Below are positions 17,504 through 64,000 of a DNA stretch of 64,000 nucleotides, in pieces; position 1 is the stretch's first letter, and the number at the start of each line of letters is the position of its first letter. The position numbers and the translations under genes are program-made. Source of the stretch: Paenibacillus sp. FSL R7-0204 (GTDB taxonomy: Bacteria; Bacillota; Bacilli; Paenibacillales; Paenibacillaceae). The notes below the pieces were generated by a model. That model was not told the origin of the DNA. It searched no databases and saw nothing but the letters and a program-made list of their open reading frames with translations. The stretch spans positions 2,914,001 to 2,978,000 of the forward strand of contig NZ_JBBOCA010000001.1 in the NCBI RefSeq assembly GCF_038002225.1. Direction: 5' to 3'.

Positions 17504-18162
17504 CCCGCATGTTGTTATTTGTATAAGTCAGCAATAGAAAACCTGTACTCAACATTGGAGCACAGGTCTGTTGCACGAATCACCATAATCAAACGCGAAA
17601 ACTCAAGGCGTTCACAGTATTTCAGCAACCTGGCTGTCATGATCCCACTTCAGAAATGAGACTGTAGATCCATGGCTTTGCGTCATTCCCTTTCGGAGAA
17701 TTTTGCCGGTATGTGGTTATAAATGAATCTGTGGAGAATTTTCCTTTACAATATATTCCTTGCTCCTCTTTTGTCAATAACCCCTGTGAGAAGAAACTCG
17801 GAATTTGGCGAATATTCAGGAGTGAAAATGGCTGAATATTTGGAATTTCAAACTTTTGAAAATGGTTGTCCCTGGAAGACTAAAGTCTTAAAATGCAAAT
17901 GGAAATTTCGGGCTATTATTATGAGGAGTAAGCACAAAGACTCATTACAATCCTGAGTTACTGCAAAATGTTAAGAATTCACTAGATATACAGCATTGCA
18001 AAATTCAATGATAGGACTTAAGTAGCGGTCATGTGAGAAGTTGGCTTATAGATAAGCTATGACAATAGAACGACTATAGTAAAGAAGTGCAAAGCACGTT
18101 TTTTACCCTTATGCACAATTTCAACAATTTGTGAATATTACATAACAATCTTAGTTTGGCAG
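17504..18162. other. Gene-free, A/T-rich stretch upstream of the ThDP gene set
   Basis: About 660 bases without a convincing gene. Between 17551 and 17577 ACCTGT and ACAGGT form a hairpin with a short CTC/GAG inner pair; read on the minus strand it is followed by TTTTCT, which could act as a weak leader terminator for the cluster. A 77-codon frame at 17723-17956 has no ribosome site and was not accepted. Confidence 0.5.
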
Positions 18163-23324: not shown

Positions 23325-23595
23325 TAAAAAAACTCCCAACCCCATACTACTGCCGTAGTAAGGGACGAGAGTTGTCGTGGTACCACCCTAATTCACTGCG
23401 ACGGTTAAGAAGCAGCCTCATTGGCCTGCAAAGGCCACACTGGTAACGGAGTGATCCGATTGTATCTACTCTAGTGTTCAATACAATATCTCAGGAGCGC
23501 TAAAGATTAATGTCCGCCACCGGTTCTCACCACCCACCGGCTCTCTGAAGACTGCTAGTAATCTTTGTTCCATCATCGGTTTTGCTTGATTAATT
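23325..23595 (-). promoter_or_regulatory. T-box riboswitch leader of serA
   Basis: The minus strand has the T-box core AGGGTGGTACCACG at 23376-23389, an AGAGAG/GGTGG-type Stem I apex (about 23525-23550), and a terminator formed by ACTCTCGTCCC...GGGGTTGGGAGT (23331-23373) followed by seven T. The arm AAAGATTA/TAATCTTT belongs to Stem I. An AGC serine codon at 23499-23501 (minus) lies at its base and is a candidate specifier, but I could not prove the specifier loop by hand. Uncharged tRNA would stabilise the antiterminator and allow serA transcription. Confidence 0.9.
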
Positions 23596-57743: not shown

Positions 57744-58416
57744 ACCTCTCGTAAAAATCTGTGGACTTCAGGGCGTTGAAGTGCTAAAATCTATGAATAG
57801 TTTGCCGCTCGATTATGTGGGCCTGGTATTTGCACCCAGCCGCCGGAGGGTTACCGCGGGTGTGGCTGCGGAGCTGATTGCAGAGCTGGGCAACTGGAAG
57901 TCTGAGCCTGCGCCCCGACCTGTTGGCGTATTCGTCAACCCCGGCCTTTCTGAGCTGGCAGAGCTGCTGAGAACTGTACCGCTGGATGTTGTGCAGCTTC
58001 ATGGACAAGAGAGTCCGCAGTTCTGTGCGGAGGTCAAGGCTGCTTTTCCCCAGGTTAAGGTCTGGAAGGCTCTTTCGGTTGCCGGGCGCAGTCCTGATGC
58101 AGGGGATGAGGTTCAACCTCTTCTGGACAGCTATGCCGGTACCATTGATGCGCTGCTGCTGGATACCTATGATCCGCAGGAGCGCGGCGGTACGGGCCGT
58201 ACATTTGATTGGGAGCAGATTCCCTTATACCAGCAAGCGGCGGCGAAGCATGCGCTGCCTTTATTTATAGCCGGAGGCTTGCATCCGGACAATGTGAACG
58301 AGCTGCTGGACGGCTACGCCCCTTATGGCGTGGATGTCTCCAGCGGAGTTGAGAGTAACGGCAGTAAGGACATTGCCAAAATGACAGCTTTCGTAGAAAG
58401 GGTGAAGCAATCATGA
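57736..58416 (+). CDS. trpF: Phosphoribosylanthranilate isomerase
   Basis: A 226-residue TIM-barrel enzyme. GTG 57736 is chosen; GTG 57727 is in frame but too near the AAGGA site. The catalytic Cys is in VKICGLQ, followed by [25 protein letters not shown], the Asp in LLLDTYDP and [11 protein letters not shown]. trpB overlaps the stop (ATGA). Confidence 0.93.
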
Positions 58417-59612
58417 TACAAGTACCGGACAAAAATGGGCGTTTTGGTTCTTTTGGAGGCCGCTTCGTTCCTGAGACCTTGATGACTGCACTGATCGAGC
58501 TGGAAGAGGCTTACAATAAATTCTCGGCAGACCCGGCCTTTCAGAAGGAAATAGATTATCTGCTCAAGCAGTATTCGGGCCGCGAGACCCCGCTGTATTA
58601 TGCAGAGCGGCTAAGCAAGCAGCTTGGCGAGGCCAAGATCTATCTGAAGCGGGAGGACCTCAATCATACAGGCGCCCACAAGATTAACAATGCTATCGGA
58701 CAAGGCATCCTGGCCAAAATGATGGGTAAAACCAAGGTGATTGCCGAAACCGGCGCAGGCCAGCACGGAGTAGCGACCGCTACGGTAGCCGCCTTGCTCG
58801 GTATGGAATGCAAGGTGTTCATGGGTGAAGAGGATACCCGCCGCCAGGCGCTGAATGTCTTCCGCATGAAGCTGCTCGGGGCAGAAGTTATTCCGGTGAC
58901 CTCCGGCTCCAGAACGCTGAAGGATGCCGGGAATGAGGCGCTCCGCTACTGGGTGAGCAATGTGGAAGATACGTTCTATGTGCTTGGCTCTGCGGTTGGT
59001 CCCCATCCGTATCCGATGATGGTCCGCAACTTCCAGCGGATTATCGGTGATGAGACCCGCCGCCAGATTCTGGAGGCGGAAGGGCGTCTGCCGGATTTGC
59101 TGGTTGCCGCAGTAGGCGGAGGCAGCAATGCCATCGGCATGTTCTATCCGTTCATGGAGGATGAGCAGGTGGCGATGATTGGTGTTGAAGCTGCCGGTAA
59201 GGGCGTAGACACTCCCTTCCATGCAGCAACCATGAGCAAGGGAAGCCATGGCGTGTTCCAGGGCTCGCTGAGCTATCTGCTGCAGGATGAGCATGGACAA
59301 GTCATCGAGGCCCATTCCATATCAGCCGGACTGGATTATCCGGGCGTTGGGCCAGAGCATTCCTATCTCAAGGACATTCACCGTGCCCAGTATGTGCCGG
59401 TGACCGATGCGGAAGCGCTGGAAGCGCTGAAGCTGCTCTGCGTGACAGAAGGCATTATTCCCGCCCTGGAATCGGCTCATGCCATTGCCCATGTGGTGAA
59501 GCTCGGCAAGACGCTGACCAAGGATGATATTGTGGTGATCTGCCTATCGGGACGCGGCGACAAAGATGTCGAATCCATTATGGCTTATACGGAAGGGGCG
59601 GAGCAGCAATGA
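58413..59612 (+). CDS. trpB: Tryptophan synthase beta chain
   Basis: A 399-residue PLP enzyme. Start [14 protein letters not shown], the PLP lysine in [32 protein letters not shown], and the phosphate-binding [13 protein letters not shown] loop. Overlaps trpF and trpA by four bases each. Confidence 0.97.
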
Positions 59613-60433
59613 CAACTGAAACGACTAACCGGATGGACCTGACGTTTAACCGGCTGAAGGCGGAAGGCCGGACTGCCCTTATTCCGTTCCTTACCGTAGG
59701 CGATCCTGATCTCGAGACTACACTGGATATTATTGCTGAGCTGGAAGCAGCCGGAGCGGATATCCTGGAGCTTGGCGTTCCTTACTCCGATCCGCTTGCC
59801 GACGGTCCGGTCATCCAGCGGGCGTCTGCAAGAGCGCTGCGAAGCAAGGTTCATCTGCGTACCTGTATGGAGACGGCGCTGAAAGCACGGCAGGCAGGCA
59901 GCGGGCTGCCGTTCATCCTGTTCACGTATTATAATCCGGTGCTGCAGATGGGGCTGGATACGTTTTTTGCAGAGCTGAATACCCATGAGATCAGCGGGCT
60001 GATTATTCCAGACCTGCCGATTGAGGAATCAGAAGACATGCGTGCACGCAGCCGTGCCGCCGGAGTGAATCTCATTCCGCTCGTGGCCCCGACCTCCAGC
60101 GAACGGATTGCCCGGATCGTATCCGGCGCAAGCGGCTTTGTCTATTGTGTATCCTCACTCGGTGTAACCGGGGAACGCTCAAGCTTCCACAGCGGAGTAG
60201 ATGAATTCATAGCGTCCGTCCGCCGGTCTACGGATCTGCCGGTTGCTGTAGGATTCGGAATCTCCACTGGAGAACAGGTATCCCGTTTTGCCAAGATCTG
60301 TGATGGTGTAGTAGTAGGTAGCGCCATCGTCCGCAAGGTGGAGGAGGTTATTCCCCTGCTGTCCCAGCCGCAGACGAGAAGCGCCGGACTGTTGCAAATT
60401 CGTGAATTTGTGGCACAATTAAGACCTAATTAA
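59609..60433 (+). CDS. trpA: Tryptophan synthase alpha chain
   Basis: A 274-residue TIM-barrel subunit. Catalytic Glu in [20 protein letters not shown] and Asp in [20 protein letters not shown] and [11 protein letters not shown] are conserved loops. Coupled to trpB; hisC follows after 23 bases. Confidence 0.96.
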
Positions 60434-60456
60434 CTTTTGGAGAGCGAGGATCACCC

Positions 60457-61554
60457 ATGAATCCAAAACCGAATATTGTTGACCTTCCTGTCTACAAGCC
60501 CGGGAAACCAATTGAAGAAGTCAAGAAGGAGCTGGGCTTAAGCGAAGTCATTAAGCTGGCATCCAACGAGAACCCTTACGGGGCTGCACCAAGTGCAAAG
60601 GCCGCTATTGTAGCGGAGCTGGATAACCTCTTTTTATACCCGGACGGCTCTGCCGCTGAGCTGACGGCGACCCTGGCTAAGCACCTGGGCGTGGCGGGCG
60701 ACCGTATTATTTTCGGATGCGGATCGGATGAGATTATTGCTCTGATTGCCCGTGCCTTCTTCCTGCCCGGTGACGAGACGATTATGGCCGATCAGACCTT
60801 CTCTGTATATAAGAGCAATGCGGATATCGAAGGAGCTGTGACTATAGAAGTCCCGCTTAAGGACGGAACGCATGATCTGGATGCGATGCTGGCGAAGATT
60901 ACTGACCGGACCAAGATCATTTGGATCTGCAATCCGAACAATCCAACCGGTACCATTGTGCCCGAGGATGCTCTGATTTCGTTCCTGGATGCAGTACCTG
61001 CCGGCGTGATGGTAGTCCTGGATGAGGCCTATTACGAATATGTGACCGATCTCAGCTACACCGACGGTATTAAATTGATCGATAAATATCCTAATTTGGT
61101 AGTCCTTCGTACCTTCTCCAAAATCTATGGTCTTGCTGCGCTCCGTATCGGCTATGGTGTAGCCAGCCAGCAGGTGATTTCCTTGATTAACCAGGTGCGT
61201 GAGCCGTTCAATACGACCCGCCTGGCTCAGGTGGCAGCGGTGGCGGCACTTTCCGATCAGGAATATGTGCAGCAGTGCCGTACACTTAACAGTGCAGGGA
61301 TCGTGCAGCTTGAGGCGGAATTCGCGCGTCTCGGGCTTACGTCCTTCCCGGCTCACGGCAACTTCATTATGGTGGATGTACGTAAGCCTGCTGCTGAAGT
61401 CTTCGATACGCTGCTGCGTCAAGGAATCATCGTCAGAACAGGCTTCCACCGGTATCCGACCTATCTGCGGGTGACCATCGGCTCCGCCGAGCAGAACACA
61501 GCCTTCGTAGCTGCCCTGGAGCAAGCGCTGAAGGAGCAGGAAGTTCGCGCATAA
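60457..61554 (+). CDS. hisC: Histidinol-phosphate aminotransferase
   Basis: A 365-residue class I/II aminotransferase. Motifs: KLASNENPYG, CNPNNPTGT, LDEAYYEY and the PLP lysine in RTFSKIYGLAALRIGYG. In the aro-trp supraoperon of Bacillus this enzyme also makes phenylalanine and tyrosine from their keto acids, which explains its place before tyrA. Confidence 0.95.
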   Translation: MNPKPNIVDLPVYKPGKPIEEVKKELGLSEVIKLASNENPYGAAPSAKAAIVAELDNLFLYPDGSAAELTATLAKHLGVAGDRIIFGCGSDEIIALIARAFFLPGDETIMADQTFSVYKSNADIEGAVTIEVPLKDGTHDLDAMLAKITDRTKIIWICNPNNPTGTIVPEDALISFLDAVPAGVMVVLDEAYYEYVTDLSYTDGIKLIDKYPNLVVLRTFSKIYGLAALRIGYGVASQQVISLINQVREPFNTTRLAQVAAVAALSDQEYVQQCRTLNSAGIVQLEAEFARLGLTSFPAHGNFIMVDVRKPAAEVFDTLLRQGIIVRTGFHRYPTYLRVTIGSAEQNTAFVAALEQALKEQEVRA

Positions 61555-61612
61555 CCGTGAGGGCTCAGAAGCTGGATTGACGATACCACAGAAGGCAGGT
61601 AGTACTAAGAAC

Positions 61613-62707
61613 ATGACGACAAAAATAGCGATTTTCGGTGTCGGCCTGATCGGCGGCTCACTGGCCCTTTGCTTCAAAGGCAAGGAGGGTCTGACCGTTG
61701 TAGGCCATGCCCACCGCCCTGAATCTGCTGCCAAATATGTGAGCAGAGGTGTGGTTGATCAGGCTACATTATCACTTGAAGAAGCTGCACTGGATGCGGA
61801 TTATATTTTTCTGTGTGTTCCGGTTGGCATGCTTGAGGACTATCTTCAGCGGTTAAGCAAGCTGCCGCTGAAGCCGGGCTGCATCATTACAGATGTCGGC
61901 AGCACCAAGGCCAGCATCGCCGCGTGTGCCCTTGCACTGGATATTCCCGGTGTACATTTCATCGGAGGCCATCCCATGGCCGGATCGGAGCGTTCAGGCG
62001 TAGAGGCAGCCTCCTCCTTACTGTTCGAGAATGCGTATTACGTGCTCACGCCCCCGCCAGGCGTACCTGAAGCGGCATACCAGGCTCTGGAGTCGCTCCT
62101 GCTACATACGAGAGCACAGATTGTCCGGCTTGATCCGGAGCGCCACGATGAGATTGTTGGAGCGATCAGCCATCTGCCGCATATTATTGCGGTAGCCCTG
62201 GTGAATCAGATTCATGCATATGACCATTCGGACTCCTTATACAGCACGCTGGCTGCGGGGGGCTTCCGTGATATTACCCGCATTGCTTCGAGCGATCCGA
62301 TCATCTGGCGCGATATTCTGCTGAATAACCGCTCTGTGATGCTGCGGCTGCTGAAGGATTGGAACGATGAGGTGTCCTCGTTCATACATCTGCTGGAGAG
62401 CGGGGATGGTGCAGGGATCGAGTCGGCCTTCCAGGAGGCGAATCAATTCCGCAGCCAGCTTCCTGAGCGGCGTAAGGGAATGATCACTCCGCTGTTCGAT
62501 CTGCATATTGATGTTCCCGATCACCCCGGCATTATCGGCCGAATTGCTACGGAGCTGGGTGACCAGGGTATCAACCTTAGTAACGTGCAGATTATTGAGA
62601 GCCGCGAGGATGTCCCCGGGATCATGCGCTTATCCTTTCGCCAGGAGAATGACATGGAGCGGGCCAGAATTCTGCTGCAGGAGAATGATTATACCGTATA
62701 TATGTAA
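61613..62707 (+). CDS. tyrA: Prephenate dehydrogenase with ACT domain
   Basis: A 364-residue enzyme making 4-hydroxyphenylpyruvate. ATG 61613 gives the usual start TTKIAIFGVGLIGGSLAL with the NAD-binding motif; an in-frame TTG at 61577 is less likely. Further: GHPMAGSERSGVEAA (active-site His), the YVLTPPPG segment, and a C-terminal ACT domain (DVPDHPGIIGRIATELGDQG) for tyrosine feedback. The gene ends the supraoperon: a terminator follows, and no aroA-type EPSP synthase is next, unlike Bacillus. Confidence 0.95.
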   Translation: MTTKIAIFGVGLIGGSLALCFKGKEGLTVVGHAHRPESAAKYVSRGVVDQATLSLEEAALDADYIFLCVPVGMLEDYLQRLSKLPLKPGCIITDVGSTKASIAACALALDIPGVHFIGGHPMAGSERSGVEAASSLLFENAYYVLTPPPGVPEAAYQALESLLLHTRAQIVRLDPERHDEIVGAISHLPHIIAVALVNQIHAYDHSDSLYSTLAAGGFRDITRIASSDPIIWRDILLNNRSVMLRLLKDWNDEVSSFIHLLESGDGAGIESAFQEANQFRSQLPERRKGMITPLFDLHIDVPDHPGIIGRIATELGDQGINLSNVQIIESREDVPGIMRLSFRQENDMERARILLQENDYTVYM

Positions 62708-62711
62708 AAGT

Positions 62712-62743
62712 AGAGCCGGGGCTGTATGCCTCGGCTCTTATTT
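62712..62743 (+). terminator. Terminator of the aro-trp-hisC-tyrA operon
   Basis: AGAGCCG with GG pairs with CC and CGGCTCT around a 7-base loop, followed by TTATTT. The 101-nt repeat begins on the next base. Confidence 0.85.
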
Positions 62744-62844
62744 AAAATATAAGAATTTATATGTTGCACACGATACATTATCCTTCTATTTCTCGCTGAA
62801 ACGGTACCGTCCTTTAAAAGGACGGCAAAGCCGTTTCTACTTGT
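62744..62844 (+). repeat. 101-nt dispersed repeat with nested hairpins, copy 2
   Basis: Same length as copy 1 at 315-415, with six substitutions and no gap. In this copy the outer stem GAAACGG/CCGTTTC is perfect and the inner stem CCGTCCTTT/AAAGGACGG is unchanged. Like copy 1 it starts directly behind an operon terminator and is in the same orientation as the upstream operon. Confidence 0.88.
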
Positions 62845-62937
62845 TAAATAGAGGAAATCCAATTGCTATCAGATGATGCCCCGGCTCCCGCAAAAAACAA
62901 GCGCTCAGTAAACACCCAAATGTTCGTAAAAATGGGC

Positions 62938-63030
62938 AAAAAAAAGACCGCTTACATTATAAGCGGTTACAGTTCACAATCTCTTGGAACCGTGTAGTGT
63001 TTGGATAGGAGTGGAGAGAAACCATACTGT
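62938..63030 (-). ncRNA. Candidate small RNA, about 93 nt
   Basis: Bounded by a perfect consensus promoter (63037-63065) and an intrinsic terminator, both on the minus strand, with no gene between. The 5' end ACAGT can pair with ACTGT (62969-62973 on the plus strand reads ACAGT), closing a loop that contains the C-rich, SD-complementary stretch CTCTCCACTCC. The terminator stem ACCGCTTA/TAAGCGGT is perfect and followed by C and eight T. A 22-codon frame (ATG at 63025) exists but lacks a ribosome site. Confidence 0.72.
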
Positions 63031-63036
63031 ACTTTT

Positions 63037-63065
63037 ATTATATGTATCCGTTTACATTTTGTCAA
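63037..63065 (-). promoter_or_regulatory. Perfect consensus sigma-A promoter of the small RNA
   Basis: On the minus strand TTGACA (63060-63065), exactly 17 bases, TATAAT (63037-63042). All twelve consensus positions match, which is rare in this window. Confidence 0.85.
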
Positions 63066-63360
63066 TACTTTATTCAAAGAAAATAAGACCGCTTTCATCA
63101 GCCTGCCTGTGCTTCTCTCAAAGTCTATTAATTTCCTCCTGTTAGAAAATGTGCTATACTGAGTTAAGTATGTTTATAGATTCCTTCCAAGTATAGGTAA
63201 CCGCTTGCTGAAGAAGTGGAGACGGGCTGTGTTGTCCTTCAGGGAGAATGCTGCCATTCTTCTGTCTAGAAAAGGAATTGAAGGTTGGAAGCCTTAAATA
63301 ACGGTAAGTTGAATATACATAGGAAGATTGGATTTTTGTGCTGCAAATTTGAAGTAATGC
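63066..63360. other. Gene-free stretch between the small RNA and the sigma-factor gene
   Basis: No gene is seen. An extended -10 box TGCTATACT lies at 63152-63160 on the plus strand and could start a long leader for the sigma-factor gene. A small hairpin AGAATG/CATTCT is at about 63244-63260. Confidence 0.4.
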
Positions 63361-63386
63361 CGCAACTTTTTGTTACCTGCCCGGTA
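63361..63386 (+). promoter_or_regulatory. Possible ECF-type promoter of the sigma-factor gene
   Basis: CGCAAC, 16 bases, GGTA, to be compared with the SigW-type TGAAAC-N16-CGTA. The AAC core and the spacing fit; two flanking bases do not. It lies 58 bases before the gene and could mediate self-activation. Confidence 0.4.
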
Positions 63387-63444
63387 TAAGTAGATACGGA
63401 CCGGACGGGATTACACGTGCAAGGGCGAGGAGGGCCGACTCACC

Positions 63445-64000
63445 ATGACGGATTCCCAGTTGATCCAGCTAATCAAGCAAGGTGATACAGAATTATACTC
63501 GGAACTCATGCGACGATATCAACGCAAGATATTGGCGTTTGTGTACCACATGCTGAAGAACTCCCATATGGAGCTGATTGCCGAAGACCTCTGTTCAGAG
63601 ACCTTCTACAAAGCCTTCCGGAGTCTTCATTCCTTCCGGGAAGTGGATGCTTCTTTCTCCACATGGCTGTACACGATTGCCCGCAATACAGTGCTGAGCG
63701 AACTTCGTAAGAACCGTGCCGGGAATGTGTCGCTTGAAGAGAGCGGCTATACGCCTGTGGCACCGCTTGATGTTGCCCCGGAACAGGCAGCATTGCGTAA
63801 GGAACGGATGGAACTTGTCCGCGAAGCGATTAACAATCTCCCGGAGAAGCAGCGTTCCGCGCTGATTCTGCGTGAATATGATCAGATGGATTACCAGGAA
63901 ATTGCCGTGATTCTGGAGCAGAGCGTCAGCTCAGTGAAGTCACTGCTGTTCCGGGCTAGGAGCAGTGTGAAGCTGCAGCTCGAATCCTATTTCTATGAGC
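63445..64000 (+). CDS. ECF RNA polymerase sigma factor (cut at window end)
   Basis: At least 185 residues; the stop lies beyond the window. ATG 63445 follows AGGAGGG by 10 bases. Region 2 reads ELMRRYQRKILAFVYHML, then AEDLCSETFYKAFRSL and FSTWLYTIARNTVLSELRK (2.4 and the end of region 2); region 4 reads NNLPEKQRSALILREYDQM followed by YQEIAVILEQSVSSVKSLLF, the helix-turn-helix for the -35 element. It resembles the SigW/RpoE-like group. An anti-sigma factor gene would be expected just downstream. Confidence 0.92.
   Translation, partial: MTDSQLIQLIKQGDTELYSELMRRYQRKILAFVYHMLKNSHMELIAEDLCSETFYKAFRSLHSFREVDASFSTWLYTIARNTVLSELRKNRAGNVSLEESGYTPVAPLDVAPEQAALRKERMELVREAINNLPEKQRSALILREYDQMDYQEIAVILEQSVSSVKSLLFRARSSVKLQLESYFYE

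Follow-up and report, generated by a model that had tools for sequence, protein, structure and literature searches.

A predicted small RNA gene of Paenibacillus with a cre-like site and a near-invariant 5' seed recurs across the class Bacilli in genomes where RsaE/RoxS is not found

Genomes across the class Bacilli carry an apparently undescribed family of predicted small RNAs (sRNAs) that is absent from Rfam 15. The member studied here lies near one end of the window, the 64,000-nucleotide stretch of Paenibacillus sp. FSL R7-0204 DNA that was analysed. Judging from sequence, we propose with a probability of about 0.7 that this gene is autonomous, is repressed by CcpA and encodes a trans-acting sRNA, which uses a single-stranded seed at its 5' end to block ribosome-binding sites. 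CcpA together with a preferred sugar would repress the sRNA, which would accumulate once the preferred carbon source runs out. Its seed, UUUCUCUCCACUCCUAUCC, would pair with Shine-Dalgarno regions that are rich in purines and follow the form GATRGGAGUGGRGAG, and this pairing would block 30S binding and lower the translation of the target, its stability, or both. Because its many targets would pair with different stretches of the seed, the seed would have stayed constant even as the targets themselves turned over between genera. An earlier reading of this DNA, the first-pass annotation, had been silent on the cre operator, on the near-invariance of the seed across the class and on the mutual exclusion with RsaE/RoxS. 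The features on which our account draws are as follows.

63060 to 63065, minus strand: -35 element TTGACA, read directly from the sequence.
63037 to 63042, minus strand: -10 element TATAAT, behind a 17-nt spacer, AAATGTAAACGGATACA.
63043 to 63056, minus strand: cre-like CcpA operator TGTAAACGGATACA, within the promoter spacer; fits TGNAARCGNWWNCA.
63003 to 63030, minus strand: predicted single-stranded 5' segment ACAGUAUGGUUUCUCUCCACUCCUAUCC, the seed, from conservation and predicted accessibility.
62969 to 62993, minus strand: local hairpin ACGGUUC/GAACUGU, from pair counts and fold.
62938 to 62967, minus strand: intrinsic terminator ACCGCUUA-UAAUG-UAAGCGGU-C-U8, from sequence and pair counts.
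61577 to 62707, plus strand: tyrA, prephenate dehydrogenase (NF005107), converging on the sRNA gene.
63445 to 63999, plus strand: ECF-type RNA polymerase sigma factor (TIGR02937, over cut-off), continuing past the window edge.

The layout of these elements supports a free-standing sRNA gene with its own promoter and terminator and no credible open reading frame (ORF). The promoter, TTGACA-N17-TATAAT at 63065-63037, is the sole 12/12 sigma-A-type site within positions 58000-64000, and its letters are exactly those that the first-pass annotation had read on the minus strand. The same annotation had called a hairpin followed by eight T at 62938-62967, and the sequence bears this out: the hairpin arms, ACCGCTTA/TAAGCGGT as DNA, span 62967-62947 and are followed by a C and eight T (62945-62938). 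It had also seen no credible gene inside, and we agree, as the ORFs that overlap the sRNA stretch are 43-53 amino acids long, none has a conserved frame, and the ATG in the seed opens frames that differ between relatives. From the promoter spacing and the onset of conservation, we infer a 5' end near 63030, at the A of ACAGUAUGG. The predicted RNA is C-rich and 92-93 nt long, close to the first estimate of about 93 nt, and the 92-nt form has a fold energy 3.2 standard deviations under dinucleotide shuffles (z = -3.2; 0 of 200 shuffles equal it).

How widely is this gene conserved? At the level of the order, a DNA search matched the sRNA region in 98 of 100 genomes and found the seed in 97, both counts including the window's own genome; a weak match, L098, is without the seed. 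The -35 element reads TTGACA or TTGACT in 96 of the 97 order-level loci, the remaining locus being unreadable, and the -10 element is TATAAT in 83, TATACT in 11 and TACAAT in 2 of the 96 readable ones. The first-pass annotation had said that its reading would be refuted if close relatives kept promoter, loop and terminator poorly. The comparison does not refute it: all three are conserved there, well beyond what chance would give. A covariance model built from 71 order-level sequences matched 161 of 398 genomes sampled evenly over the class Bacilli (E <= 0.01). We inspected 40 of these matches (20, plus 20 weaker ones down to E 2.9e-4); none of the 40 is among the twelve of the 161 that have E of 3.9e-4 to 0.0068. 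The seed is present in each of the 40, differing at 0-3 of 19 nt, and by eye each also has a hairpin and a T-run. Most have a recognisable promoter, with none in L139 and a poor -10 element in L509 and L511.

Among 137 loci, 97 from the DNA search and 40 from the model search with L098 excluded, 13 of the 28 seed positions (7-8, 10-16, 22-24 and 26) are identical throughout and nine more are identical in at least 132, an invariance that is somewhat overstated since the searches favour seed-bearing loci and diverged members of the family would be missed. A scan of named genomes for the exact seed returned at least 118 stretches. Among the matches listed are Paenibacillus, Cohnella, Brevibacillus, Aneurinibacillus, Ammoniphilus, Melghirimyces, Thermoactinomyces and Caldalkalibacillus, as well as Shouchella, Halalkalibacter, Alkalihalobacillus, Pseudalkalibacillus, Fictibacillus, Alteribacillus and Marinococcus; a taxonomy look-up places Shouchella, Fictibacillus and Thermoactinomyces all in the class Bacilli. 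In a sample of the phylum, 9 of 398 genomes match the model, and seven of these belong to the window's own family. Two phylum matches (L505 and L506) show no promoter or terminator in 140 nt and were left out of the membership count. No sRNA match at E 1e-5 came from plasmid or phage records. Two genomes (G338 and G302) carry a second match to the model; of the two in G338, L137 and L138, the latter has kept the seed, with a different promoter and a single hairpin.

The promoter spacer of these genes holds a cre-like site. What we take to be the cre consensus, TGNAARCGNWWNCA, is found there in 94 of the 97 order-level loci, with variation confined to its degenerate positions; of the three exceptions, one is unreadable and two (L078 and L082) combine one mismatch with a further cre-like sequence upstream. 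We then counted cre sites from -80 to +130 of the seed in the 211 loci left after removal of duplicates and of those that were incomplete or unreadable, and in background windows of equal length. A perfect cre occurs in 163 of the 211 loci, which are related to each other and some of which were picked by their exact seed, vs 3 of 5031 background windows. Allowing one mismatch, the counts are 196 of 211 vs 130 of 5031 (2.6%). The site lies in the promoter in 169 loci, in the 3' hairpin region in 48, in both in 21 and nowhere in 15. That the cre is retained while its place shifts argues for selection on CcpA control; the 15 loci that have no cre-like site indicate that such control would not be universal. 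Since the cre lies between the -35 and -10 elements, CcpA would be expected to repress the gene rather than activate it. In several relatives (L189, with TTTGTAAACGCTTTCGTTTACAAA, and L182, L152, L196 and L172), the terminator or the 3' hairpin itself contains a cre palindrome, and one sequence may there double as DNA operator and RNA stem.

The first-pass annotation had placed the C-rich segment in an open loop. Folding predictions agree that it is exposed: over 208 loci the C-rich part, UCUCUCCACUCCUAU, has a mean unpaired probability of 0.83, and in 188 of the 208 at least two hairpins are predicted 3' of it. The closing stem that the same annotation had drawn between ACAGU and ACUGU fares less well. 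In the set of 25 close sequences, pairing holds in 100% of cells for both the local hairpin and the terminator, and one pair of the local hairpin changes on both sides, from G-C to A-U, in 5 of the 25. Five two-sided cells arose in 0 of 500 shuffles and some pair changed on both sides in 353 of 500, and the support from covariation at this one pair is modest. In other relatives the sequence of the hairpin is swapped (for example GCAC/GUGC) and the hairpin as such is retained. The ACAGU/ACUGU helix is compatible with the 25 close sequences and has zero two-sided changes. It competes with the better-supported local hairpin for a single 3' arm, ACUGU, and has no counterpart in distant relatives with GCAC/GUGC or other stems. 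Weak closure of the C-rich part by other stems is possible in some relatives and is not general. RNAalifold on the 71-sequence alignment was set aside: MAFFT misaligns those hairpins whose sequence has been swapped, so that just six pairs came out, and pairs were therefore counted on the 25-sequence close set.

Which mRNAs might the seed reach? In the window's own genome, near-perfect complements of the seed show no excess overall (27 vs 30 in the control). Several complement hits in this genome fall on ribosome sites. Predicted pairing with the seed reaches -32.9 kcal/mol at the ribosome site of a HesB-like protein (by eye), -29.5 kcal/mol for an NMT1-type lipoprotein (Pfam, first 70 residues), -26.1 kcal/mol for a carbohydrate ABC permease (by eye; its first 70 residues have no Pfam hit) and -25.6 kcal/mol for a nucleoside hydrolase (by eye). 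Across 25 genomes of the genus, the pattern GGAGNGGAGAGN{0,8}ATG occurs 89 times, and counted over all spacings the N of GGAGNGGAGAG shows no T excess (A 29, T 27, C 17, G 16). When GGAGNGGAGAG lies at most 2 bases from the ATG, its N is T in 15 of 27 cases; in the background, T follows GGAG in 66 of 566.

Two gene families stand out as the best target candidates, again on sequence grounds. In two genomes a 16-nt perfect complement of the seed, GGATAGGAGTGGAGAG, is the ribosome site of a membrane glycosyltransferase (Pfam PMT_2) that we presume to be of the GT39 type and YkcB-like. Orthologues occur in 43 of 61 genus genomes, and among the 30 loci analysed GATRGGAGTGGR is exact in 11, has one change in 7, two in 4 and three or more in 8. 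At these sites A and G alternate opposite U, and GATAGG and GATGGG both pair with the seed. The mean pairing energy with the seed is -23.6 kcal/mol for these 30 genes, a value weakened by at least two regions that are mis-started (L368 and L371), vs -15.2 for 200 background start regions; 0 of 300 permuted seeds match the former value. The window's own genome is a moderate case: its GT39 gene scores -19.4, and 129 of 747 background start regions are equal or better. None of the pattern hits inspected in order-level relatives outside the genus is GT39. The second candidate comes from another genus (G283; probably Brevibacillus, by likeness to named loci), in which 26 genomes gave 45 pattern hits; 11 of 30 loci taken from these, in 11 genomes, are one ABC ATPase (PF00005; presumably YlmA-like) with AGGAGTGGAGA ahead of its ATG. 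The scores for both families are partly circular, since GT39 was picked for its two perfect complements and the ATPase for its fit to the pattern, and the genomes are related rather than independent. Recurrence of complementarity at two gene families nevertheless makes the FsrA/RoxS-like action on GGAG ribosome sites that the first-pass annotation had envisaged appear likely. Glycerate kinase was considered as a common target and rejected, as only a few of 30 loci fit. In three genomes (L449, L450 and L465), GATGGGAGTGGR forms part of the ribosome site of a membrane protein of about 150 amino acids, which may be a further target; its first 75 residues have no Pfam hit.

Could the seed instead act as a sponge or decoy that titrates G-rich RNAs or mimics the 16S anti-Shine-Dalgarno, damping translation broadly? 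The lack of excess partners in the window's own genome would suit this, and the seed presumably resembles the 3' tail of 16S rRNA. RosA and RsaI are CcpA-regulated stand-alone sRNAs that act as sponges (PMC8216469, PMC8464778, PMC9217828). However, those two use G-rich segments and the new sRNA has no GGGG. Near-invariance over about 20 nt also seems beyond what a generic anti-Shine-Dalgarno needs, and the complementarity recurs at the same gene across many species. We consider broad titration unlikely. Less likely still is that a protein, such as an sRNA chaperone or a translation regulator, binds the 5' segment and that this contact explains the conservation. Bases outside the C-rich part, for example UAUGG, are near-invariant too, as protein contact would allow, but the strictest core is the part complementary to the Shine-Dalgarno, and the GATAGG and GATGGG that alternate on the target side both preserve pairing.

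Is the CcpA-repressed, ribosome-site-blocking sRNA that we favour a member of a named family? The first-pass annotation could not tie it to one. Rfam 15 gives no match above threshold at the site, whether for the whole window, the local region or 20 relative loci, and the chance-level overlaps at local E <= 10 (RF02063, E 6.4, on the other strand; RF01346, E 8.8) fall far below the gathering scores. Searches confined to open-licence PMC papers found no description of the sRNA in Paenibacillus and no occurrence of the letters of the seed. Its architecture of 5' seed, hairpin and terminator is that of the RybB/MicA-type enterobacterial sRNAs, in which an invariant single-stranded 5' multi-target seed is followed by a hairpin and a terminator. 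These are Hfq- and sigma-E-dependent, belong to another phylum and are unrelated to the new sRNA in sequence. FsrA of Bacillus subtilis is under iron (Fur) regulation rather than that of CcpA and is among the Rfam families, of which the new sRNA matches none above threshold. The likeness to FsrA lies in a C-rich single-stranded region that is proposed to bind ribosome-binding sites (PMC8216469, PMC8464778).

Other sRNAs of Bacilli share parts of this design. SR1 of B. subtilis is made under gluconeogenic and repressed under glycolytic conditions (PMC8216469, PMC8464778). Its repressor sites lie in the promoter spacer, where the new sRNA has its cre-like site, and beside the -35 element, and it is widely conserved in Bacillales; however, its main repressor is CcpN, CcpA acts from a distant cre, and SR1 encodes a peptide (PMC8216469, PMC8464778). 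We found no SR1P-type peptide in the new sRNA, whose short ORFs have no conserved frame, and the SR1 sequence was compared via Rfam only. RosA of B. subtilis, also stand-alone, is repressed by CcpA and has a cre close to where its transcription starts; it differs in being up to 225 nt long and a G-rich sponge of RoxS and FsrA, with no C-rich regions (PMC8216469, PMC8464778). The new sRNA does not have this combination of a G-rich sponge and a missing C-rich region. RsaI (RsaOG) of Staphylococcus aureus is also stand-alone, is regulated by CcpA and uses a C-rich region for its mRNA targets (PMC8216469, PMC8464778); at the sequence level, the new sRNA has a conserved cre-like operator that would allow the same control. 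Unlike the new sRNA, RsaI is described as restricted to Staphylococcus and as having two G-rich motifs that bind RsaE (PMC9217828). The 92-nt sRNA has no such motifs, containing no GGGG, and occurs where RsaE is not found.

The comparison with RoxS/RsaE itself has further consequences. RoxS/RsaE is a small autonomous RNA of Bacilli with C-rich single-stranded segments aimed at ribosome-binding sites, and at about 100-115 nt it is comparable in size (PMC8216469, PMC8464778, PMC9217828, PMC6435200). The new sRNA would share these traits. Unlike RsaE, which has UCCCC motifs (PMC9217828, PMC6435200), the new sRNA carries UUUCUCUCCACUCCUAUCC and gives no covariance match, and its 92 nt contain no CCCC. 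RoxS is controlled by ResD and Rex (PMC8216469, PMC8464778), whereas the new sRNA has a cre-like site in its promoter. RF01820 (RsaE/RoxS) has no hit in the window at the gathering threshold, nor at E <= 10 in positions 62600-63400, and the window's own genome has no RsaE at E <= 0.01.

How are the two sRNAs distributed? RF01820 matches 117 of the same 398 genomes at E <= 0.01, 82 of these matches being over the cut-off and the weakest of the remainder doubtful; among 14 control genomes, only B. subtilis matches. No genome has both the new sRNA (161 genomes) and RF01820 (117), with about 47 expected if they were independent, and 120 of the 398 have neither; both searches used strict filters, and weak matches are lost. 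By eye, the two lists have no family label in common. Genomes within families are not independent, so the exclusion may reflect one or a few historical switches. In the NCBI taxonomy, Shouchella (new sRNA) and B. subtilis (RoxS) are both Bacillaceae. We tentatively suggest, at somewhat less than even odds, that the new family is a class-wide counterpart of RoxS/RsaE, such that a genome has at most one of the two, and that they answer to different metabolic signals, cre/CcpA for the new sRNA and Rex/ResD for RoxS. If this is true, the B. subtilis and Staphylococcus lineages, which underlie nearly all work on Gram-positive sRNAs, swapped out a widespread carbon-control sRNA, and RosA and RsaI would be later devices that reconnect CcpA to the replacement. 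An sRNA so widespread and near-constant, yet absent from Rfam 15, would be the global regulator so far missing from the picture in Paenibacillus, Brevibacillus, Thermoactinomyces, Shouchella and further agricultural or industrial genera, in which it would supply a post-transcriptional arm of carbon catabolite control. The exclusion makes two matters directly testable questions: what takes the place of RoxS outside its own range, and how sRNA networks are rewired over deep time.

Finally, the surroundings of the gene bear on its autonomy. The tyrA gene scores E 2.5e-123 and 411.6 bits against NF005107, just under the cut-off of 414. In the window the nearest genes on either side of the sRNA gene are both on the opposite strand. 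An upstream tyrA (or, by eye, aroA) that shares the strand of the sRNA is the rule in most lineages; in the window's clade the sRNA gene is inverted relative to tyrA. Counted by single-linkage clusters, tyrA homologues stand upstream on the sRNA's own strand at 126 neighbour positions and downstream on the opposite strand at 44. The prevailing order might point to a riboswitch, leader or 3' UTR product of the adjacent gene, but the sRNA has a strong promoter and terminator of its own, and a leader or 3' UTR product would hardly be expected to survive inversion at the same locus; we regard this origin as very improbable. Least credible of all is a tiny peptide from the ATG at 63025-63023 (MVSLHSYP...), for although this ATG is kept in 128 of 137 loci, it lies about 5 nt from the predicted RNA start with no room for a Shine-Dalgarno, third codon positions are no more variable than the first and second, and depending on the species the frame closes after 8 to 78 codons or is still open past 80, with the ATG missing from 9 of 137 loci. 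A compound inverted repeat, CCGTCCTTT-A-AAAGGACGG inside AAACGG...CCGTTT, lies at 62799-62836, in the gap that separates tyrA from the terminator of the sRNA gene. Elsewhere in the window, both on the minus strand, are a T-box leader (23358-23585; RF00230, 106 bits) and a c-di-GMP-I riboswitch aptamer (17621-17717; RF01051, 63 bits).
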